From contig LNDO01000050.1 in assembly GCA_001465025.1 (NCBI GenBank), positions 1-64,000 of the forward strand: DNA of 64,000 nucleotides, read 5' to 3'. The stretch is from Pseudomonas sp. Ga0074129 (GTDB lineage: Bacteria; Pseudomonadota; Gammaproteobacteria; Pseudomonadales; Pseudomonadaceae). The position numbers and the translations under genes were made by a program. Positions 51,304 through 63,084 of the stretch are shown one piece after another. Position 1 is the stretch's first letter. Each line of letters opens with the position of its first letter. The notes under the pieces were generated by a model. That model ran no database searches. It was not told where the DNA came from and saw only the letters and a program-made list of their open reading frames with translations.

Positions 51304-51424
51304 ACTGTTAGCGACATGGGTACAGCCCATTCATGCCATATGCTTTTGGCGGCGAATGGATAAGTAAGCCTATAGGTGGTCCGTTGGCAGGCAGTTGCCT
51401 CCTTTTTAAAGATGGATTTTGATC

Positions 51425-52726
51425 GTGAATGCAGCTTCCTCGGCGATGCAACAAGCCTCCAATGATGAAATCGATCTGGCGGCGCTTTTTCAAGCGCTCT
51501 GGGCGCAAAAGTTACTGATTACTCTGGTCACGCTGTCGGTTGGCATGTTGGCGCTGGCGTACGCGTTTCTTACAACCCCTGAGTATCAAGTGCAGAGTGT
51601 AGTGCGGCCTGCGGCGATTAAGGATCTGGACGCACTGAACCGCACAGGTGTCTATGAGCTTACGCCAGAGCAGGCTATGCAGCGTGTAGGCGCGAGCCTG
51701 GATTCTTATGACAGCCGATTGGGTTTTTTTCGCGCCAATCAGGGCCTCTTCGAGGCACTACGTCAGCCTAACCGTAGCCTTGAGCAGACCTTTGAAAACT
51801 TCAATAAACAAGCTTTCAAGATGCTCCAGCCCGACTCGAAAAAAACCGACAACCTCAGCGCCTACGTCGGCGTTCAGCTGACTTATCCGCAGGGTGTCGA
51901 TGGTGTTGCATTGCTTAATGGCTTGGTTGGTTACGTGGTTCAACGCGAGCGCGAGCGCATTGCCGACGACTTTACGGTGGTAATCCAGAATCACCTGGCT
52001 CAGCTGGACTCCAAGATGGCGGCAGCCCGTGCCAGCTATGAAGCCATTAAGGAAGCCAGGATCGCCGAGTTATTGGAGGCCGATAACCTCAAGCGCGCCG
52101 AGTTGCAGGACGAGCTCAAGGCTTTGCGTCAGCAGCTCAAGACGCATCGCGATAATCGTATTGCGCAGTTGGATGAAGCGGTTCGTATCGCTAAGGCTCT
52201 GGACATCCTCAAGCCCACCACACCTTCTGCTTTGGCTGAGGTGGGACGGGTGTCCCAGGGCAGCGTAATCCGTACCGAGGTCAACAATCAGCAAATCCCT
52301 CTGTATTTTATGGGCAGCGAGGCCCTGGAAGCCGAGCGCGCTGCGCTGCGGCAACGTCGTTCGGATGACTTTACCGAGCCGCGTATCGCACAGATCGCCA
52401 AAGAGCTCAAACTGTTAGAAAACAACCGGCAGGTTGAGATACTGAATAAACGCGAAAACCAGGACCTTTTTCTCAAGGACTTGGCCATCTGGCGGGAAGA
52501 GGCAGCCCAGCTGCGCAGCCTTGCAATCGACGCCTCTAACCTGAAGCTGGTTTCCGTCGATCAAGTAGCCATTGAGCCTTTAAGCCCAATAAAGCCCAAG
52601 AAAGCGTTGATTCTGGCTCTTGGGCTGGTGCTTGGCGGCATGCTGGGTCTGTTTATTGCCCTGATACGTCATATGATGCGGCGCGAGCCGGCAGCGCTTA
52701 GCTTGAGCGCAGGTGCAATCAGCTAG
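51425..52726 (+). CDS. wzz: Wzz, O-antigen chain-length determinant protein
   Basis: Inner-membrane polysaccharide co-polymerase setting O-antigen length. With GTG at 51425 (GATGGA upstream) it has 433 residues: cytoplasmic N-terminus with EIDLAALFQALWAQK, membrane helix at about 30-52, a long periplasmic helical region (about 60-395) and a second helix at about 398-418 preceded by the proline-rich PLSPIKPKKALILALGLVLGG. TTG 51419 and ATG 51446 are alternative starts. First gene of the O-antigen cluster and, as in P. aeruginosa, next to ihfB. Confidence 0.9.
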   Translation: MNAASSAMQQASNDEIDLAALFQALWAQKLLITLVTLSVGMLALAYAFLTTPEYQVQSVVRPAAIKDLDALNRTGVYELTPEQAMQRVGASLDSYDSRLGFFRANQGLFEALRQPNRSLEQTFENFNKQAFKMLQPDSKKTDNLSAYVGVQLTYPQGVDGVALLNGLVGYVVQRERERIADDFTVVIQNHLAQLDSKMAAARASYEAIKEARIAELLEADNLKRAELQDELKALRQQLKTHRDNRIAQLDEAVRIAKALDILKPTTPSALAEVGRVSQGSVIRTEVNNQQIPLYFMGSEALEAERAALRQRRSDDFTEPRIAQIAKELKLLENNRQVEILNKRENQDLFLKDLAIWREEAAQLRSLAIDASNLKLVSVDQVAIEPLSPIKPKKALILALGLVLGGMLGLFIALIRHMMRREPAALSLSAGAIS

Positions 52727-54491: not shown

Positions 54492-55613
54492 ATGAAAATT
54501 CTTGTTACCGGCGGTGCTGGTTTTATTGGATCAGCGGTCATACGCCACATCATCGACAGCACCGCTGGTAGCGTGGTCAATCTCGACAAGCTCACCTATG
54601 CCGGCAACCTAGAGTCCCTGCTCGACGTCAGCGACAGTGAGCGGTACGCCTTCGAGCAAGTCGACATCTGCGACAGGGTAGCGCTTCAGAGAGTGTTCCA
54701 AGAGCATCAACCAGATGCCGTGATGCACCTAGCTGCTGAGTCTCACGTAGACCGCTCCATCGATGGCCCTGCCACATTTATTGAAACCAATATCGTTGGT
54801 ACTTACACGCTACTCGAGGCCACGCGTCAGTATTGGCAAGGGCTGGAAACAGCTCGTAAAGCAGCCTTCCGCTTTCATCACATTTCCACCGATGAAGTCT
54901 ATGGCGATCTGGAAGACCCAGAAGCGCTGTTCACCGAAACCACCCCCTACGCTCCCAGTTCACCCTACTCGGCGAGTAAGGCCAGCTCAGACCATTTGGT
55001 GCGTGCGTGGAGTCGTACCTACGGGCTGCCGATGCTGATTACCAACTGCTCAAATAACTATGGCCCGTACCACTTCCCGGAAAAACTCATTCCGCTGATC
55101 ATTCTTAACGCCCTTGAAGGCAAACCGCTGCCGGTCTATGGCAAAGGCAATCAAGTGCGCGACTGGCTGTATGTTGAAGATCATGCTCGTGCCCTATACA
55201 AGGTTGTGACCGAAGGCGTAGTGGGGGAGACCTACAACATTGGTGGCCACAATGAAAAACAGAACATCGAAGTTGTCCACGCCCTTTGCGAGCTGCTCGA
55301 TGAACTCCGGCCGATGCAAACACCAGTAGGAGCGAGCTTGCTCGCGATCAACGATTTAGCTGACGCCCAGATCAAGCATCAGCCAATGCGCTCTTACAAA
55401 GAACTCATCACCCATGTCCAAGACCGCCCCGGCCATGACCTGCGTTACGCCATCGACGCCAGCAAGATCCAGCGCGAACTGAATTGGACGCCTGTCGAAA
55501 CCTTCGAGTCAGGGATTCGCAAGACGGTTGAGTGGTATCTGAGTAACCAAGAGTGGTGCCGCCGCGTGCAAGATGGTAGCTATCAACGTGAGCGTTTGGG
55601 CGCGACAGCATAA
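54492..55613 (+). CDS. rmlB: RmlB, dTDP-glucose 4,6-dehydratase
   Basis: Makes dTDP-4-keto-6-deoxyglucose. The 373-residue SDR has NAD motif [31 protein letters not shown], catalytic [13 protein letters not shown] and YxxxK in [16 protein letters not shown], plus the family end [15 protein letters not shown]. It is 15-20 residues longer than usual: an extra segment at about 277-298 between ELRPM and SYKELITH is encoded by a REP-type palindrome plus flank. The catalytic parts are unaffected. Followed by rmlA (12 bp). Confidence 0.95.
55326..55347. repeat. REP-type palindrome inside rmlB
   Basis: GCGAGCTTGCTCGC, preceded by GTAGGA, is the core of the commonest intergenic REP sequence of fluorescent pseudomonads (recalled). 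Here it is translated in frame as VGASLLAI within RmlB. Confidence 0.85.
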
Positions 55614-55625
55614 AGGAAGCAATAC

Positions 55626-56492
55626 ATGAAAGGCATTCTTCTCGCCGGCGGTTCCGGCACACGGTTGTACCCGATCACTAAAGGTGTGTCCAAGCAACTG
55701 CTGCCCATTTACGACAAACCAATGATCTACTATCCCTTGTCCGTATTAATGTTGGCTGGTATCCGCGACATCCTACTGATAAGCACTCCGGAAGATATAA
55801 GCGGTTATCAGCGCCTACTGGGCGATGGTTCCGATTTTGGGATAACAATCAGCTATGCCGTACAACCCAGCCCGGATGGGCTAGCCCAAGCCTTTATTAT
55901 TGGCGAAGAATTTATTGGCAAGGATAGTGTTTGCTTGGTTCTGGGAGATAACATCTTTTATGGCCAAGGTTTTGGCCCTATGTTGCGCGCAGCCGCAGCT
56001 CGCTGTAAGGGTGCTACCGTATTCGGTTACCAGGTCAAAGACCCAGAGCGCTTCGGTGTGGTTGAGTTTGATGAAAATAAGCGTGCCATATCGATTGAGG
56101 AAAAGCCGCAAAAGCCAAAATCTCACTATGCCGTCACGGGTCTGTATTTCTACGATAATGATGTGGTGCAGATAGCCAAGCAGGTAAAGCCTTCTCATCG
56201 AGGGGAGCTGGAAATCACCTGCATCAACCAAGTCTATATGCAGCGCGGGGATCTTAACGTCGAGTTGCTTGGTCGTGGCTTTGCCTGGCTCGATACAGGT
56301 ACTCACGAAAGCCTGCTTGAGGCGGGTCTTTTCGTCGAAACTATTGAGAAGCGCCAAGGCTACAAAATCGCCTGCCTCGAAGAAATTGCTTTTACCAATG
56401 GCTGGTTAAGCAGCAATGATTTAAAACGCATAGGTCAGTCATTAAGCAAGAACAGTTATGGTCAGTATCTTCTATCCCTTTTGATACAGTAA
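55626..56492 (+). CDS. rmlA: RmlA, glucose-1-phosphate thymidylyltransferase
   Basis: Joins glucose 1-phosphate and dTTP to dTDP-glucose. The 288-residue protein shows the full signature [48 protein letters not shown] and [19 protein letters not shown]. Lies in the order rmlB-rmlA without rmlD or rmlC, as in the rffG-rffH part of the ECA operon. Confidence 0.96.
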
Positions 56493-56503: not shown

Positions 56504-57067
56504 ATGGCATATTTATCCAGAGAAGCTCTTGAGCAAATGGGTTTCAAGAGTCTTGGACTGAATGTTCACATCAGTGATAAAGCCAGTATCTACAATGCTG
56601 ATCAGATTGAGATCGGCGATAACTCTAGAATTGATGATTTTTGCGTGGTATCAGGCAAGGTAAGAATTGGTAAATTTAACCATATTACTCCTATGTGTTT
56701 GATTGCCGGTGGAGAGCCCGGCGTATACTTTGAAGATTTTTGCACCCTAGCTTATGGTGCTAAAGTTTTTTCACAGTCAGACGACTACAGTGGCGAAACA
56801 ATGACTAATTCGCTGGTGGGGAAAAAGTATAAAAAAGAACGGTTCGAAAGTATTTATATTGGTAAGCACGTCATCGTTGGGGCTGGCTCCATTGTATTTC
56901 CCGGTGTCAACCTCGCAGTGGGTTGCTCTGTGGGCGCAATGTCATTGGTCATCCGTAGTACCGATCCATGGGGGATCTATGTTGGAAGTCCCGCACGAAG
57001 GGTAAACGAGCGTAAAAAAGATTTGCTTGAACTTGAGCCTAAATTTTTAGAAGATTTCTACAAATGA
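56504..57067 (+). CDS. Left-handed beta-helix (hexapeptide) acyltransferase
   Basis: A 187-residue trimeric O- or N-acyltransferase by fold: repeated hexapeptides such as IEIGDNSRIDDFCVVSG and IGKHVIVGAGSIVFPGVNLAVGCSVGAM, with the conserved nearby IRSTDPWGIYVGSPARRV. It sits between rmlA and wecE and overlaps wecE (ATGA). In the enterobacterial common antigen operon this place is held by the GNAT enzyme WecD, which acetylates dTDP-Fuc4N, so this protein most likely makes dTDP-Fuc4NAc (or another N-acyl form) by a different fold; inference only. Confidence 0.85.
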   Translation: MAYLSREALEQMGFKSLGLNVHISDKASIYNADQIEIGDNSRIDDFCVVSGKVRIGKFNHITPMCLIAGGEPGVYFEDFCTLAYGAKVFSQSDDYSGETMTNSLVGKKYKKERFESIYIGKHVIVGAGSIVFPGVNLAVGCSVGAMSLVIRSTDPWGIYVGSPARRVNERKKDLLELEPKFLEDFYK

Positions 57068-58194
57068 TCCCATTTAACAAGCCGCCCTATACCGGTAACG
57101 AAGATCAATATGTAATGTCTGCCATGCGCAGCAGCAAAATATCTGGCGACGGCCAGTTTACTCAGCTTTGCCATGAGTGGTTTGAAAAGAATACGGGCAC
57201 CAAGAAAGCACTATTAACACCATCATGTACTCAAGCGCTGGAGATGGCTGCAATCCTGCTAGATATTCAGCCCGGCGATGAAGTTATTATGCCGAGTTAC
57301 ACCTTTGTCAGCACCGCTAATGCTTTTGTTCTGCGCGGTGCAAAGATTGTTTTTGTCGATATCCGTCCAGATACAATGAATATCGATGAGAATCTAATTG
57401 AAGCCGCCATCACGCCCAAAACCAGAGCTATCGTGCCCGTCCATTATGCTGGTGTTGCCTGCGAAATGGACACCATCATGGCCATCGCAGATAAGCACCA
57501 ATTGTTTGTGATTGAAGATGCTGCACAAGGAATGATGGCCACTTACAAGGGCCGCGCGCTCGGCAGCATCGGGCATATGGGGGCCTATAGCTTCCATGAA
57601 ACCAAGAACTACACCAGCGGTGGTGAAGGTGGCGTGCTGCTGATTAACGATGAACGCTTCACTGCTAGAGCCGAAATTATCAGAGAGAAAGGCACGAATC
57701 GCAGCCAGTTTTTTAGGGGTATGGTCGATAAATATACTTGGGTAGATATTGGAAGCAGTTACTTACCTTCAGAGTTACAGGCAGCCTATCTCTATGGACA
57801 ACTTGAATGCGCAGAGGAGATAAATATCAATCGTCGAGCAACATGGGGGGCTTACATAAATGCCTTCTCCACTCTCACTGATAAGATAGCAACGCCTTAC
57901 ATTCCTTCTGGTTGTCAGCATAATGCACATATGTTTTACCTGAAACTTTCTGGTCTTGAGAGTCGAACCAAGTTCCTTGAGGTGATGAAAAATGAGTCGA
58001 TAATGGCTGTGTTTCATTATGTACCGTTGCACTCGTCAATCGCAGGCAAGAAGCTTGGCATATTTTCAGGCGCTGACAACTTTACCACTAAAGAAAGTGA
58101 GCGCCTTGTACGGTTACCACTTTGGTACGGTTTAAGCGAACAGGATGTAACTCGTGTTTTAGACGTTGTGTCTAATGCTATTGCATGCAATTAA
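57064..58194 (+). CDS. wecE: WecE, dTDP-4-amino-4,6-dideoxygalactose transaminase
   Basis: PLP aminotransferase that turns dTDP-4-keto-6-deoxyglucose into dTDP-Fuc4N. The 376-residue protein is close to E. coli WecE through its length: start MIPFNKPPYTGNEDQY, DIQPGDEVIMPSYTFVSTAN, PVHYAGVACEMDTIMAIA, PLP-binding Lys in FHETKNYTSGGEGG, and EKGTNRSQFFRGMVDKYTW. Base composition falls along the gene and becomes AT-rich. It is followed directly by a WzxE-like flippase, the same order as in the ECA operon. Confidence 0.93.
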   Translation: MIPFNKPPYTGNEDQYVMSAMRSSKISGDGQFTQLCHEWFEKNTGTKKALLTPSCTQALEMAAILLDIQPGDEVIMPSYTFVSTANAFVLRGAKIVFVDIRPDTMNIDENLIEAAITPKTRAIVPVHYAGVACEMDTIMAIADKHQLFVIEDAAQGMMATYKGRALGSIGHMGAYSFHETKNYTSGGEGGVLLINDERFTARAEIIREKGTNRSQFFRGMVDKYTWVDIGSSYLPSELQAAYLYGQLECAEEININRRATWGAYINAFSTLTDKIATPYIPSGCQHNAHMFYLKLSGLESRTKFLEVMKNESIMAVFHYVPLHSSIAGKKLGIFSGADNFTTKESERLVRLPLWYGLSEQDVTRVLDVVSNAIACN

Positions 58195-58200
58195 TTTCAT

Positions 58201-59448
58201 ATGAGCGCTATTTACAGTGTTTTATTAACAGGCTCTGCCCATCTTTCAAAGATATTGGTGGGCTTTGTTCTTTTAAAATTAATTGCCCTCTATTTGGGCG
58301 CTGAGGGGGTTGGGGTTTTAGGGCATTTCATGAGTGCAGTAACTATTGTTACCCTGCTCGCAGGGGGGGGGGTTGTTAATGGTGTTATAAAATACGTGGC
58401 GGAATATCGGGGTGAGCCACGGAAAATGCTATTATTTATATCTTCTGCGGCTTTTTATTCACTAGCTTTTTGCGTAATAGTATTAGCTTTAGGTGTTTTT
58501 TTTTCAAAGAGCATATCAGTATTTTTATTTCGGTCCGAAGATTTTTACTGGGTTGTTATGCTACTGGCAGTCGCACAGCTAGGATTTGCGTTTACCAACT
58601 TAGTCACAGGGGTCTGTAATGGACTAGGAGATACTAAGGGTTTTGCAATAATACAAATAATTGGCAATCTCTTGGCGCTTCCGCTAGCTTGGTTTTTGAT
58701 TTTTCACTATGAAATTGCTGGTGCTGCAATAGCAATAATAGCGGTTTTTTTTATGGGCGTTTTCCCTGGGTTTTATTTTTACTTTAAGTCTTCATTTTTT
58801 GGTCGAGTAAAATTTAGTGTAGTGACCAGGGTTGAGTTAAAGAAACTTTCTGCATTTACTGTCATGTTATTGGCTAGTGCTTTAACTTTTCCTTTAGTGG
58901 AAATGGTAGTGAGAGAATTTCTGATACATAACGGCGGGTATGCTGAGGCAGGTCTCTGGCAGGCTTCTATTAGATTATCTGCTGCATATCTTGGGTTTTT
59001 TGGTGTGTTTTTGGCGTATTATTTTATGCCTCTTATTTCGCCTATAGCTGATAAGAAAGTAATTGGTCAGTATGTGCGCAAATTCATGCTGCTAGTTATG
59101 GTTATATTTTTGATAGGTGCTTCGGTTTTTTATGTGGGGCGCAGTTTTTTTATTCCGGCATTATTGTCGAGTGATTTTTCTCGGCTTGAAGATTTGATAG
59201 TTTTCCAGTTGATTGGTGATTTTTTTAAGATATCTAGTTACGTTATAGGGTTTGTTGGTGTAGCTAAGGCAGCAACAAAGCTTTATGTAAGTGCAGAGCT
59301 TTTACAAGGGCTGTTGTTTTTAGGGGTGGCCTTACTGATTGGTAGCTTGTTGGGCGGTATCAAAGGAGTTCTTATCGGCTATATGCTGACCTATGTCATC
59401 TATTTTGTTTTGTGTACTTGTGCTTTCGTATTCTGGGCTCGGAGATAA
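58201..59448 (+). CDS. wzx: WzxE-like lipid-linked oligosaccharide flippase
   Basis: A 415-residue membrane protein with about 12 helices (MATE/MOP superfamily). It resembles E. coli WzxE at the start (LLKLIALYLGAEGVGVLGHF; GGVVNGVIKYVAEY) and at the end (FQLIGDFFKISSYVIGFVGVAKA). Moves the undecaprenyl-linked O-unit to the periplasm. Residues 55-57 (GGG) are encoded inside a run of ten G (58363-58372) in an otherwise AT-rich gene. One G more gives a stop within 3 codons after the run, one less within about 6, so the tract could switch the gene off. Confidence 0.9.
   Translation: MSAIYSVLLTGSAHLSKILVGFVLLKLIALYLGAEGVGVLGHFMSAVTIVTLLAGGGVVNGVIKYVAEYRGEPRKMLLFISSAAFYSLAFCVIVLALGVFFSKSISVFLFRSEDFYWVVMLLAVAQLGFAFTNLVTGVCNGLGDTKGFAIIQIIGNLLALPLAWFLIFHYEIAGAAIAIIAVFFMGVFPGFYFYFKSSFFGRVKFSVVTRVELKKLSAFTVMLLASALTFPLVEMVVREFLIHNGGYAEAGLWQASIRLSAAYLGFFGVFLAYYFMPLISPIADKKVIGQYVRKFMLLVMVIFLIGASVFYVGRSFFIPALLSSDFSRLEDLIVFQLIGDFFKISSYVIGFVGVAKAATKLYVSAELLQGLLFLGVALLIGSLLGGIKGVLIGYMLTYVIYFVLCTCAFVFWARR
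58363..58372 (+). repeat. Homopolymer of ten G in wzx
   Basis: Ten consecutive G, encoding three glycines plus the first base of the next valine codon. With 11 G the frame reads GGT TGT TAA; with 9 G it reads TTG TTA ATG GTG TTA TAA. Both are early stops, near residue 60 of 415. Confidence 0.95.
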
Positions 59449-59478
59449 AGTGTTTTTTGGGGCTAAAGGAGCGAAATT

Positions 59479-60585
59479 ATGATCATGTTGCCAATTTATT
59501 TGAGTTTTATTGTTGTCTCTATACTCTGTGCATTTGAGCATTTTAGCAATGGGCGCTCTTACAAGATTATATACTACTGGATTGTTATGTTTTTTCTTGT
59601 GCTTCTGGCCTCATTTAGAAGTATTGGTGTTGGGAGCGATGATCAGGCATATATGTTTATATTTCATGGTATTCCCTCGCTTCTAGAATGCGAGAGTTTT
59701 TTGTGTGGCTACAGTTACTCGATTTATAATATAGAATTTGGTTTTTTTTGGTTTTTATCTCTGTTGTTAGTTTTTAGTTCTTCGCAGTATTGGCTATTTT
59801 TTTCTGTAGCTTTTGCATCGGTTTGTTTTAATCTCAAAAGTATTCGATATTTTTCCCCTTATGCTGGGGCTTCTGTAGTGGTGTATTTCACTCACTTTTT
59901 CTTGGCAAAAGAGCTGAATGCTATCCGTCTTGGGCTGGCTACAGCTATTCTTTTTTATGCCGCATGTTTTTTAACTAAATGTCGTTATTCAATGATGTTT
60001 TTCTTGTTCGCTATAGCGGTCTCGTTGCATGTTTCGTCAATAATTTTTTTGATGCCCGTAGTCGTTTACTTACTTTCGCCAAACAGATCAGTTTTTGTTT
60101 TTGCGGGGATTACTTCTTTATTGCTCGCTTGGCTTTTCGATTTGGGTTTATTATTTAATTCACTTGCAGGTTTTGGCTTTATTGGTGAAAAAATAAGTCT
60201 TTATTTGAGCGCTGAAGAATATAACTATGCATTGCCTATATTTGATGTTGTAAATATTAAAAACTTGCTGGTATGTTCTATTTCGTTGTTGTTTTGGAAT
60301 CAACTTTTATCTCGATATGACTGGTTCAAGATTTCGTTTTGTTTTTTTTATAGTGCGACAATGTTTCGGATTTTATTCGGTGATTTTGCTATTCTTGCAG
60401 GGCGTGGATATTCCGTAATCTCAATGTTTGAATATGTTCTTATTCCTTGCCTTGCTTGTTTTTTTCTTGGGCGTGGGTTGGGGTATATAGTTGTTTTTAT
60501 ATATTCGTTTCTAACTCTTTGGCTTAATCTGACAATTAATGCTGGCTGGAGTGGCGGAGTAAATTATTTCCATGATTTTCTTTAA
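59479..60585 (+). CDS. wzy: EpsG/Wzy-type O-antigen polymerase
   Basis: A 368-residue membrane protein with about ten to twelve hydrophobic helices. The segment LASFRSIGVGSDDQAYMFIF is the EpsG-family hallmark (R-x-x-G-x-D-x-x-x-Y). By position between flippase and glycosyltransferases it is the O-unit polymerase; Wzy sequences are very diverse, so the specific linkage cannot be named. Very AT-rich with long T runs. Confidence 0.82.
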   Translation: MIMLPIYLSFIVVSILCAFEHFSNGRSYKIIYYWIVMFFLVLLASFRSIGVGSDDQAYMFIFHGIPSLLECESFLCGYSYSIYNIEFGFFWFLSLLLVFSSSQYWLFFSVAFASVCFNLKSIRYFSPYAGASVVVYFTHFFLAKELNAIRLGLATAILFYAACFLTKCRYSMMFFLFAIAVSLHVSSIIFLMPVVVYLLSPNRSVFVFAGITSLLLAWLFDLGLLFNSLAGFGFIGEKISLYLSAEEYNYALPIFDVVNIKNLLVCSISLLFWNQLLSRYDWFKISFCFFYSATMFRILFGDFAILAGRGYSVISMFEYVLIPCLACFFLGRGLGYIVVFIYSFLTLWLNLTINAGWSGGVNYFHDFL

Positions 60586-60603
60586 CTACCTCAAAGGTGC
60601 TCT

Positions 60604-61824
60604 GTGAAGAAAGTTTTATTTGTTCTTGGTGGTTTGCATATGGGGGGGGTCGAGACCTATATTGTTCGGTTGGCTAAAGAGCTTAATGCGTGTGGCTGCG
60701 AGGTCGATGTTTTAATAATCTCAAAGCAATATGATAGTGGTTTGATTTCTGAAATTTCTAAGTTTACAAATATATTTATCCATGAAAATGCGTCTTTTTT
60801 AAAGGCTTCAAGCTGGATTAATGCTTTTCTTCCTTTGAAATGGGAGGGTGAAAGAGCGTGCTATGACGTGGTTCATGTTGTTGATCTTCTAACGCTTGGA
60901 TTTGTTTTTTTAAATAGAAATGTTATTAAATTTAAGGCTCTTAGTATTGGTATTTACCACTCAATGGAGATGTATTGGTGGCGTAACAAAGGGGCTTATT
61001 TTAGGTCTAAGCTGCTTGAGTTATATGATAGCAATGTTAGCTTGACTCTTTTTCCTAGTGAGAGTGTTGCGATAATGGCCTCTGAGTTGACGGGGGTTGC
61101 TATAGATGATATGGATATTTTGCCTTTAGGTATTGAGCTTTCTAAATATAGTAATTGTGCTCCGTCCTTTAGCTCTAGAAAAATTGTTTCTGTTGGTAGA
61201 TTGGTTGATTTTAAAGTTTATAATCGCCATTTAATTTCTCAACTTTCAGAGCTTCGTAAGCTTGCGGAATTTGAATACTATATTTATGGCGAGGGGCCTG
61301 AGCTAGATGCTCTCCAGAAGCATGCAGTCGAGTGTGATGTTGATAGATATGTGCACTTTATGGGTGGTGTTAAGTATAAGGATTTACCGAGTGTACTAGA
61401 TGGTATATTTTGTTTTGTTGGTTCAGGCACTACTATCATCGAAGCCTCTGCTGCTGGAGTCCCTTCGCTTGTGGGTATTGAATCGATTAAACAACCGTTG
61501 ACGTGTGGTTTATTTTCTGATGTGGAAGGTTATTCTTATAATGAAGAATCAGCAACAACTAGGAGGTTGTCGTTTGTTGATGCCGTAAATGAGATTTATC
61601 AATTGAATGAGTCCGAATATGCTTATTTAGCAAGGTGTCACCGCACAAAGTCATCTTGTTTCGATATTAAGATTACAGCAGTGGAGTTCTTGAAGAAGTC
61701 GAATAAGCTACCTAATTTTAGTTTTAAATTTAATAGATGGTTGGCGATTCTTTCGTTTGTTTATTCTGTTTTCCGTTTTGGCCCTAGGGCGCTTAAGTCA
61801 AGATTCGAGAGTGGGAAAGATTAG
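60604..61824 (+). CDS. Glycosyltransferase family 4 (GT-B)
   Basis: A 406-residue glycosyltransferase: N-terminal KKVLFVLGGLHMGGVETYIV, C-terminal domain with SRKIVSVGRLVDFK, YIYGEGPELDALQKHA and IIEASAAGVPSLVG (EX7E-like). GTG start at 60604. A run of eight G (60642-60649) lies at codons 13-16; gain or loss of one G ends the frame within about 10 or 25 codons. The sugar cannot be named; in the ECA operon the Fuc4NAc transferase WecF lies here, but this protein does not look like WecF. Confidence 0.85.
   Translation: MKKVLFVLGGLHMGGVETYIVRLAKELNACGCEVDVLIISKQYDSGLISEISKFTNIFIHENASFLKASSWINAFLPLKWEGERACYDVVHVVDLLTLGFVFLNRNVIKFKALSIGIYHSMEMYWWRNKGAYFRSKLLELYDSNVSLTLFPSESVAIMASELTGVAIDDMDILPLGIELSKYSNCAPSFSSRKIVSVGRLVDFKVYNRHLISQLSELRKLAEFEYYIYGEGPELDALQKHAVECDVDRYVHFMGGVKYKDLPSVLDGIFCFVGSGTTIIEASAAGVPSLVGIESIKQPLTCGLFSDVEGYSYNEESATTRRLSFVDAVNEIYQLNESEYAYLARCHRTKSSCFDIKITAVEFLKKSNKLPNFSFKFNRWLAILSFVYSVFRFGPRALKSRFESGKD
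60642..60649 (+). repeat. Homopolymer of eight G near the start of a glycosyltransferase gene
   Basis: Eight G in an AT-rich gene, reading ATG GGG GGG GTC. It is shorter than the run in wzx and thus less prone to slippage. Confidence 0.85.
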
Positions 61825-61836
61825 GGGATTAATAAA

Positions 61837-63084
61837 TTGAGGATAGCTCTTGTTTCGCAGTATTTTTGGCCTGAGTCTTTTGTTATAAATGAACTTGTTA
61901 AATCTCTTGTTTCTCATGGGCATGTTGTAGAGGTTTTTACGGGGAAGCCTAATTATCCCGATGGTGAAGTTTATGAAGGCTATAATGCGGAAGGCTGCAT
62001 GGATGAGCTTTTCGAGGGTGAAATAATGGTCCATCGTGCGCCGCTCCGGCCGCGTGGGAGTGGCGGTGCTAAAAAATTATTACTCAATTATTTTTCATTT
62101 GTACTAAACGGTCTCCTGTTTTTTCGACGGGCAGTCAAGAATCGTTCCTTTGACGTGATTTTTGTTTTCGTACCATCGCCAATAACCTCTGTTATCCCAG
62201 CAATTTATCTAAAATGGCGTCTCAAGGCGCATCTTGCAGTTTGGGTACAAGACATATGGCCAGAAAGCCTCAGTGCTACGGGGTTTATACGTAATCGCTT
62301 CGCTCTACGTATAGTCGGTTGGTTGGTACGGGGGATCTATGCATGCACAGATACGTTGCTCGTGCAGTCAAAGGCATTCATTACTCCGGTTGCACGTTAT
62401 GCCCGACGCGACAAGATCGTTTATTACCCAAACTCTTATCAATACTCGCCTCCGGAGCCCGTAGCCTGTACTCAGGTACCTGCTGAGTTGCTGTCGCAGC
62501 TTGAGGATAATTTTTGCTTGGTTTTTGCGGGTAACCTTGGTAGGGCACAGTCTGTTGAGACTCTGATCCAGGCTGCGGAAAGTTTAAAGCATTTGTCTGA
62601 GTGTAAACTGGTGCTAGTAGGCAGCGGCAGCATGCTCGGTTGGGTGGAAGAGCAGAAGGCTCAAAAAGGCTTGGATAATTTGATCCTGACTGGGCGTTTC
62701 CCCCCTTCGGAAATGCCGCAATTTTTTAGCCGTGCAGCCGGATTGATAGTGACACTCAAGCGAGAGGAGATTTTTGCCTATACGATCCCTAGCAAGGTTC
62801 AAGCCTATCTCGCCGCAGGCCGTCCTGTGATCGCCGCGCTCGATGGTGAAGGGGCGCGTGTCATTGAGGAGGCGGGAGCTGGCTTGTCATGCCCCGCAGA
62901 AGACTCCGCAGGCTTGGCCCGCTGTATTGAGCAGCTCTTCAATATGCCGCCGGAAGCGCGCGAAAAGCTCGGGCAGTCTGGGCGAGAGTTTTTTGTGGCA
63001 AATTTTGAGATGGCGCGACAAAGCCAGCGTCTAGTGGAAATTCTTGAGAATAGAATCAGCGAAGGAAGAGGGATGTCGAAATGA
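61837..63084 (+). CDS. WbuB-like glycosyltransferase family 4
   Basis: A 415-residue GT-B enzyme close to WbuB/WbjE, which add L-FucNAc or L-QuiNAc to the lipid-linked unit. The diagnostic N-terminus is ALVSQYFWPESFVINELV with GKPNYPDGEVYEGY, and VWVQDIWPESLSATGF; C-terminal FAGNLGRAQSVETLIQAAE, GSGSMLGWVEEQ and IPSKVQAYLAAGRPVIAAL. Start TTG at 61837 after AGGGG. The first 190 bp are AT-rich and the rest near the chromosome average, so a junction may lie inside this gene. The end overlaps the reductase gene (ATGA). Confidence 0.87.
   Translation: MRIALVSQYFWPESFVINELVKSLVSHGHVVEVFTGKPNYPDGEVYEGYNAEGCMDELFEGEIMVHRAPLRPRGSGGAKKLLLNYFSFVLNGLLFFRRAVKNRSFDVIFVFVPSPITSVIPAIYLKWRLKAHLAVWVQDIWPESLSATGFIRNRFALRIVGWLVRGIYACTDTLLVQSKAFITPVARYARRDKIVYYPNSYQYSPPEPVACTQVPAELLSQLEDNFCLVFAGNLGRAQSVETLIQAAESLKHLSECKLVLVGSGSMLGWVEEQKAQKGLDNLILTGRFPPSEMPQFFSRAAGLIVTLKREEIFAYTIPSKVQAYLAAGRPVIAALDGEGARVIEEAGAGLSCPAEDSAGLARCIEQLFNMPPEAREKLGQSGREFFVANFEMARQSQRLVEILENRISEGRGMSK

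Follow-up and report, generated by a model that had tools for sequence, protein, structure and literature searches.

The 64,000-nucleotide stretch of DNA analysed here (the window) contains, on its + strand, an intact wzx gene (58201–59448) that encodes a WzxE-like O-unit flippase of 415 residues. The protein matches PF01943 (E 9e-9; 35.6 bits, over a cut-off of 28.2). It also matches the WzxE equivalog model NF011679 (E 1e-71; 242.3 bits) without reaching the curated cut-off of 325, so that it is WzxE-like rather than a WzxE equivalog by that measure. Homology to E. coli WzxE, the lipid III flippase whose structure has been solved (9g95), extends over residues 7–415 (E 2e-52). The predicted model is all-helical, with a mean pLDDT of 89.3. 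The sequence match and the helical membrane fold, the latter taken from the predicted model, place the protein among the Wzx flippases.

The genes on either side of wzx are all on the + strand. Upstream are a gene for a wzz-like chain-length regulator (51419–52726; PF02706, E 3e-12), two sugar-nucleotide ORFs (54492–56492, from the ORF calls), which from their translations we take to be rmlB-like (54492–55613) and rmlA-like (55626–56492), a hexapeptide-repeat acyltransferase gene (56504–57067; PF00132) and a WecE-like sugar transaminase gene (57064–58194; TIGR02379, 674 bits over a cut-off of 434.85). Downstream are an EpsG-family membrane protein gene (59479–60585; PF14897, E 3e-29), which is probably the O-antigen polymerase gene wzy, and a family 4 glycosyltransferase gene (60604–61824; PF13439 and PF00534). 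The neighborhood includes two glycosyltransferases. The 16 kb of contig beyond the window hold further sugar-nucleotide genes, and ORFs in that region are presumably WbpL-like and WbpM-like. With wzx, a polymerase whose role is assigned from the EpsG match, wzz, glycosyltransferases and sugar-nucleotide genes adjacent to each other, the locus around the tract described below qualifies as a Wzy-type O-antigen locus. Without wzx, export is blocked, whereas without wzy single O units still pass. A plasmid search with positions 57000–62000 gave no match.

The ten-G tract in wzx

A run of ten G (58363–58372, + strand) forms wzx codons 55–57 (GGG GGG GGG) and the first base of codon 58. The first-pass annotation had proposed that this run switches O-antigen export on and off. 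Its placement of the run in the flippase gene, counted from the ATG at 58201, was confirmed, and so was its frame arithmetic, with the stops read by eye. Gain of one G leads to GGT TGT TAA and a product of 59 residues, while loss of one G leads to five more codons and then TAA, for a product of 62 residues. Translation restart after the stop was considered and rejected, as the ATG just past the tract sits in a frame that, by eye, ends three codons on. The tract has the sequence layout of a simple-sequence contingency locus: it is an in-frame homopolymer, it is long enough to slip, and a change of one unit in either direction truncates the product. The assembled wzx is in the ON state: its reading frame is unbroken and can be aligned with the homologues over the full length.

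The three glycines encoded by the tract, G55–G57, are invariant across 18 aligned Pseudomonas sequences and sit in the gap between helices 3–52 and 59–68 of the predicted model. E. coli WzxE has Gly-Ala-Gly at the place where the window Wzx has Gly-Gly-Gly.

The genome is a draft of 4.02 Mb in 124 contigs, and the wzx tract is its sole run of at least ten G. It had been argued that such a run was unlikely to occur by chance in AT-rich surroundings. The surroundings are AT-rich (GC 0.36–0.40 at 58–62 kb, with a positive GC skew), but the improbability was overstated. Outside the tract, the gene has 37 glycine codons, of which 11 (~30%) are GGG. Synonymous shuffling of wzx produced a G run of at least ten with P = 0.038, or P = 0.014 when the glycine usage of the whole cluster, excluding the tract, was applied; with the 57 genes called in the window all shuffled, such a run appeared in any gene with P = 0.037. 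Runs of 5, 6 and 7 G in the window genes (32, 6 and 1 observed) are below the shuffled values (57.9, 11.4 and 2.0), so that the tract stands out slightly more. Genome-wide, there are 14 distinct runs of at least eight G (ten G8, three G9 and one G10), and the geometric tail of the run lengths predicts 0.97 runs of at least ten. Of 99 genomes from the genus, this one included, 92 have at least one G10. At the level of the gene the G10 run is slightly unusual; at that of the genome it is ordinary. The P values of 0.014–0.038 for the tract itself still leave room for selection.

Two other homopolymers are located nearby. A T9 run (58496–58504, + strand), one of six T9 runs among those listed for the genome, is likewise within wzx. 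Besides the G10, the window has a further long G run, a G8 tract (60642–60649, + strand) at codons 13–16 (Met-Gly-Gly-Val) of the family 4 glycosyltransferase gene, which is the second gene after wzx.

Relatives and wzx clusters

The genus was sampled with one genome per species. A wzx match was found in 69 of 398 genomes (own included), and all 69 are unbroken; another sample of 392 genomes, which overlaps with the first, has 44 wzx matches, again all unbroken. None of the other matches is above 55% identity, the nearest relatives being at 46–55%.

We compared the codons of the glycine motif in 60 loci (L006–L065) after removal of L007, which is on the same contig as L028, and of L025, the window's own locus. 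The motif is present in 34 of the remaining 58. GGG accounts for 28 of the 102 motif codons in these 34 homologues, compared to 26.3 expected from the other glycines of each gene, and the G run at the motif is 2 to 9 long. The codon comparison ruled out a conserved tract, and the motif appears to give no sign of a tract maintained in the relatives. Among further homologues, one carries a G9 and another a G8 at the motif. Mixed GGN coding of these glycines in close relatives had been named beforehand as evidence against a switch. Mixed codons are present, but in relatives that are 46–55% identical and thus not close, so that the result is no test in close relatives.

The wzx homologue of P. wadenswilerensis (51% identical) has its own in-frame G11, at a different codon (L009:8906–8916). 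A C12 run in no called gene lies ~3.5 kb upstream of it (L009:5400–5411). This G11 is the strongest single hint of convergent tracts, and, together with the G9 and G8 at the motif of the two homologues mentioned above, it could be a case of convergence.

Long G runs were also counted in other wzx genes, using 24 of 25 clusters (L130 failed the size filter) and leaving out the window's own gene. Runs of at least eight G number 4 compared to 2.1 expected (P 0.16), those of at least nine 2 compared to 0.84 (P 0.20), and those of at least ten 1 compared to 0.24 (P 0.21). A second set of 20 wzx genes has no run of at least eight among the runs listed. There is no significant excess of long G tracts in wzx genes by any of the three tests (P 0.16–0.21).

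We extended the count to all coding G/C runs of at least eight in wzx clusters (L114–L133, L006–L010 and L192–L211) and in control stretches (L134–L151 and L212–L231), with genes defined by a greedy longest-ORF rule. In set 1, 25 clusters have 8 runs compared to 8.83 expected, and 18 controls have none compared to 5.2 (P 0.025 for the contrast). In set 2, 20 clusters have 4 compared to 3.2, and 20 controls have 2 compared to 6.75 (P 0.089 alone). Pooled, the 45 clusters have 12 runs compared to 12.03 expected, whereas the 38 controls have 2 compared to 11.95, an approximately six-fold depletion (P 0.0067). The C11 of control L226 is in a probably antisense ORF, and the contrast is stronger without it.

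Several features of these samples define the comparison. The clusters of set 2 lie around Wzx homologues that are more distant, and they need not all be O-antigen loci; one was cut to 11 kb, and ten of the 20 set 2 controls come from set 1 genomes. The control places were picked by hand, avoiding a G078 stretch with a known G13; this G13 is in no called gene, which leaves the coding counts unaffected. GC content is 0.50–0.53 in the clusters and 0.61 in the controls, a difference that the shuffle corrects only in part.

G:C runs are depleted in the coding DNA of P. aeruginosa, according to passages of PMC3837008. This depletion recurs in our data outside the wzx clusters and is absent inside them. 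The wzx clusters tolerate long G/C runs, without an excess, and relaxed purging suffices to account for them since no excess is present. The contrast between clusters and controls amounts to a general, testable statement on where Pseudomonas allows long G:C runs.

Possible slippage in the tract and its interpretation

We assign a probability of roughly 0.6 to the reading that the G10 tract is accidental and, at the same time, a probably hypermutable and reversible loss-of-function site; an evolved switch is not demonstrated. Wzx would need three consecutive glycines at the break between two helices. A triple GGG with a G at the start of the next codon could arise there by chance, since ~30% of the other glycines are GGG and the DNA is AT-rich, with G over C and T over A. 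Selection against long G:C runs, seen elsewhere in the genomes of the genus, would be weak or absent in clusters containing wzx, which may be why the run has persisted. Given its length of ten G, replication slippage should produce 9 or 11 G far above the mutation rate of an average site. Either slip would end Wzx at about residue 60, and a second slip would restore it. O-antigen export can probably be lost and regained here, for example when phages attack, even if the tract did not evolve to that end. The slip rate, the phenotype, the reversibility and the lack of selection keeping the tract are all points that we infer.

Homopolymer slippage in O-antigen genes has precedents. In V. cholerae O1, poly-A tracts in wbeL and manA are reported in passages of PMC3441752 to cause O-antigen phase variation. 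As in the window, a homopolymer (8–9 long in V. cholerae) lies in O-antigen genes and a one-base slip truncates the product early. The V. cholerae tracts, however, are poly-A in sugar-synthesis genes, whereas the window tract is poly-G in a flippase gene. The wbeL tract is conserved in 37 of 37 O1 strains of that study, unlike the window tract in the available relatives. Switching was shown there experimentally, with variants selected by phage and reversal demonstrated for manA, whereas switching of the window tract is predicted. Within the genus, phage-selected wzy mutations of P. aeruginosa are mainly homopolymer indels (passages of PMC10714927), and a T7 to T8 change in the Wzy-like ORF1587 is described in a work that terms such mononucleotide-stretch changes phase variation (passages of PMC6467409). 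These cases share the genus and pathway of the window tract, with indels in single-base runs removing O-antigen polymerization, but they concern a polymerase gene and a shorter run (T7 to T8 in ORF1587). A poly-G frameshift in P. putida flhB (Segura 2004, as cited in passages of PMC2831843 and PMC3056050) is likewise located in a Pseudomonas coding gene and termed phase variation, although flhB is a flagellar export gene and not an O-antigen gene. The first-pass annotation knew of no described G-tract switch in a Pseudomonas Wzx, and our literature search found none either among the titles and abstract openings listed. The wzx passages of papers on H. parasuis and H. parainfluenzae do not mention one, and neither 'wzx' nor 'flippase' occurs in the text of a phase-variation review (PMC11868660). 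The tract is a possible further case of this known type of slippage, with its status as an evolved switch unproven.

An evolved contingency locus, in which the G10 was established and maintained by selection (e.g. by O-antigen phages) to leave some cells without O antigen at any time, seems to us unlikely. In its favor, the longest G run of the genome falls near the start of the ORF of a surface-polysaccharide gene, both shifted frames stop at once, and a distant homologue carries a G11 of its own. The V. cholerae O1 switches and the phage-selected wzy indels of P. aeruginosa point the same way, as does the argument of Moyano et al., in passages of PMC3837008, that those G:C runs which coding sequences retain are of importance. 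However, there is no conservation and no GGG bias at the motif (28 of 102 compared to 26.3), no significant excess in wzx genes, no excess in the clusters (12 compared to 12.03), and all 69 wzx matches are ON. Flippase loss is also reported to be toxic in E. coli K-12 making O units, where it stops growth through sequestered undecaprenyl phosphate (passages of PMC11813082); switching wzx off would accordingly be costly. Thus, the gene, the frame arithmetic and the OFF consequence of the proposed phase switch hold, whereas its evolution as a switch finds no backing in conservation or in a significant excess. A wider version, in which tolerated G tracts act as contingency sites in Pseudomonas wzx clusters, flippases included, and make O-antigen export flicker, with the G10 of the window, the G11 of the P. 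wadenswilerensis wzx and the G9 of a third homologue as independent cases, is speculative and rather improbable.

Both mutS and mutL give matches over cut-off and are unbroken, which ruled out a mismatch-repair defect as the source of the tract. According to passages of PMC4702332, 9-bp runs slip very readily in P. aeruginosa lacking repair, with 0.13 changes per generation in a 9-bp homopolymer, and repair corrects 99.6% of raw errors. Multiplied by the uncorrected share, this gives ~5e-4 changes per generation with repair by our own arithmetic. Only one of eight indels in the wild-type lines of the same work was in a homopolymer, so that a high slip rate under working repair is presumptive. 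The unbroken repair genes, this low share and the ON state of the assembled gene would also fit a tract that hardly changes with repair intact and has no consequence. We regard such an inert run as doubtful, given the estimate of ~5e-4 for a shorter run and the common homopolymer changes of wzy in phage-resistant P. aeruginosa clones (passages of PMC10714927). By extension from these studies, wzx should often be lost and restored through changes in this tract.

If the tract slips as reported in P. aeruginosa, roughly one in every few thousand cells could, by extrapolation, lose or regain its O antigen in each generation. Such slippage would bear on phage resistance, on serotyping and on the reading of wzx 'pseudogenes'. 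An assembly or sequencing error, with a true run that is interrupted or of another length, is very improbable even though homopolymers are error-prone in sequencing and the draft has 124 contigs, because ten G keep the frame, homology is unbroken on both sides, and homologues have exactly three glycines there.

Long G runs were also surveyed across the genus. We examined 70 places with runs of at least ten G, consisting of 30 loci and 40 of 44 further distinct places among those listed (four near contig ends were excluded). No called ORF covers 27 of the 70; 14 fall in ORFs of less than 150 aa and the other 29 in longer ORFs, some of them apparently antisense on inspection by eye. A Pfam scan of 11 of the 29 longer ORFs gave six matches (aldo/keto reductase, MMPL, MFS, DUF2076, PepSY_TM and SPOR) and five ORFs without a match. 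A genus-wide class of coding poly-G in surface genes was rejected, as there is no surface-sugar gene among the 11 ORFs scanned. The genome of the window has a G9 within a very long Ig/cadherin-repeat surface-type protein of more than 1261 aa (L072:2001–2009; G000:C79:166548–166556), and a C8 within a type I restriction specificity (Methylase_S) gene (L066:2001–2008; G000:C5:32102–32109). Another genome of the genus has a G21 run, located in no long ORF (L098:1501–1521).
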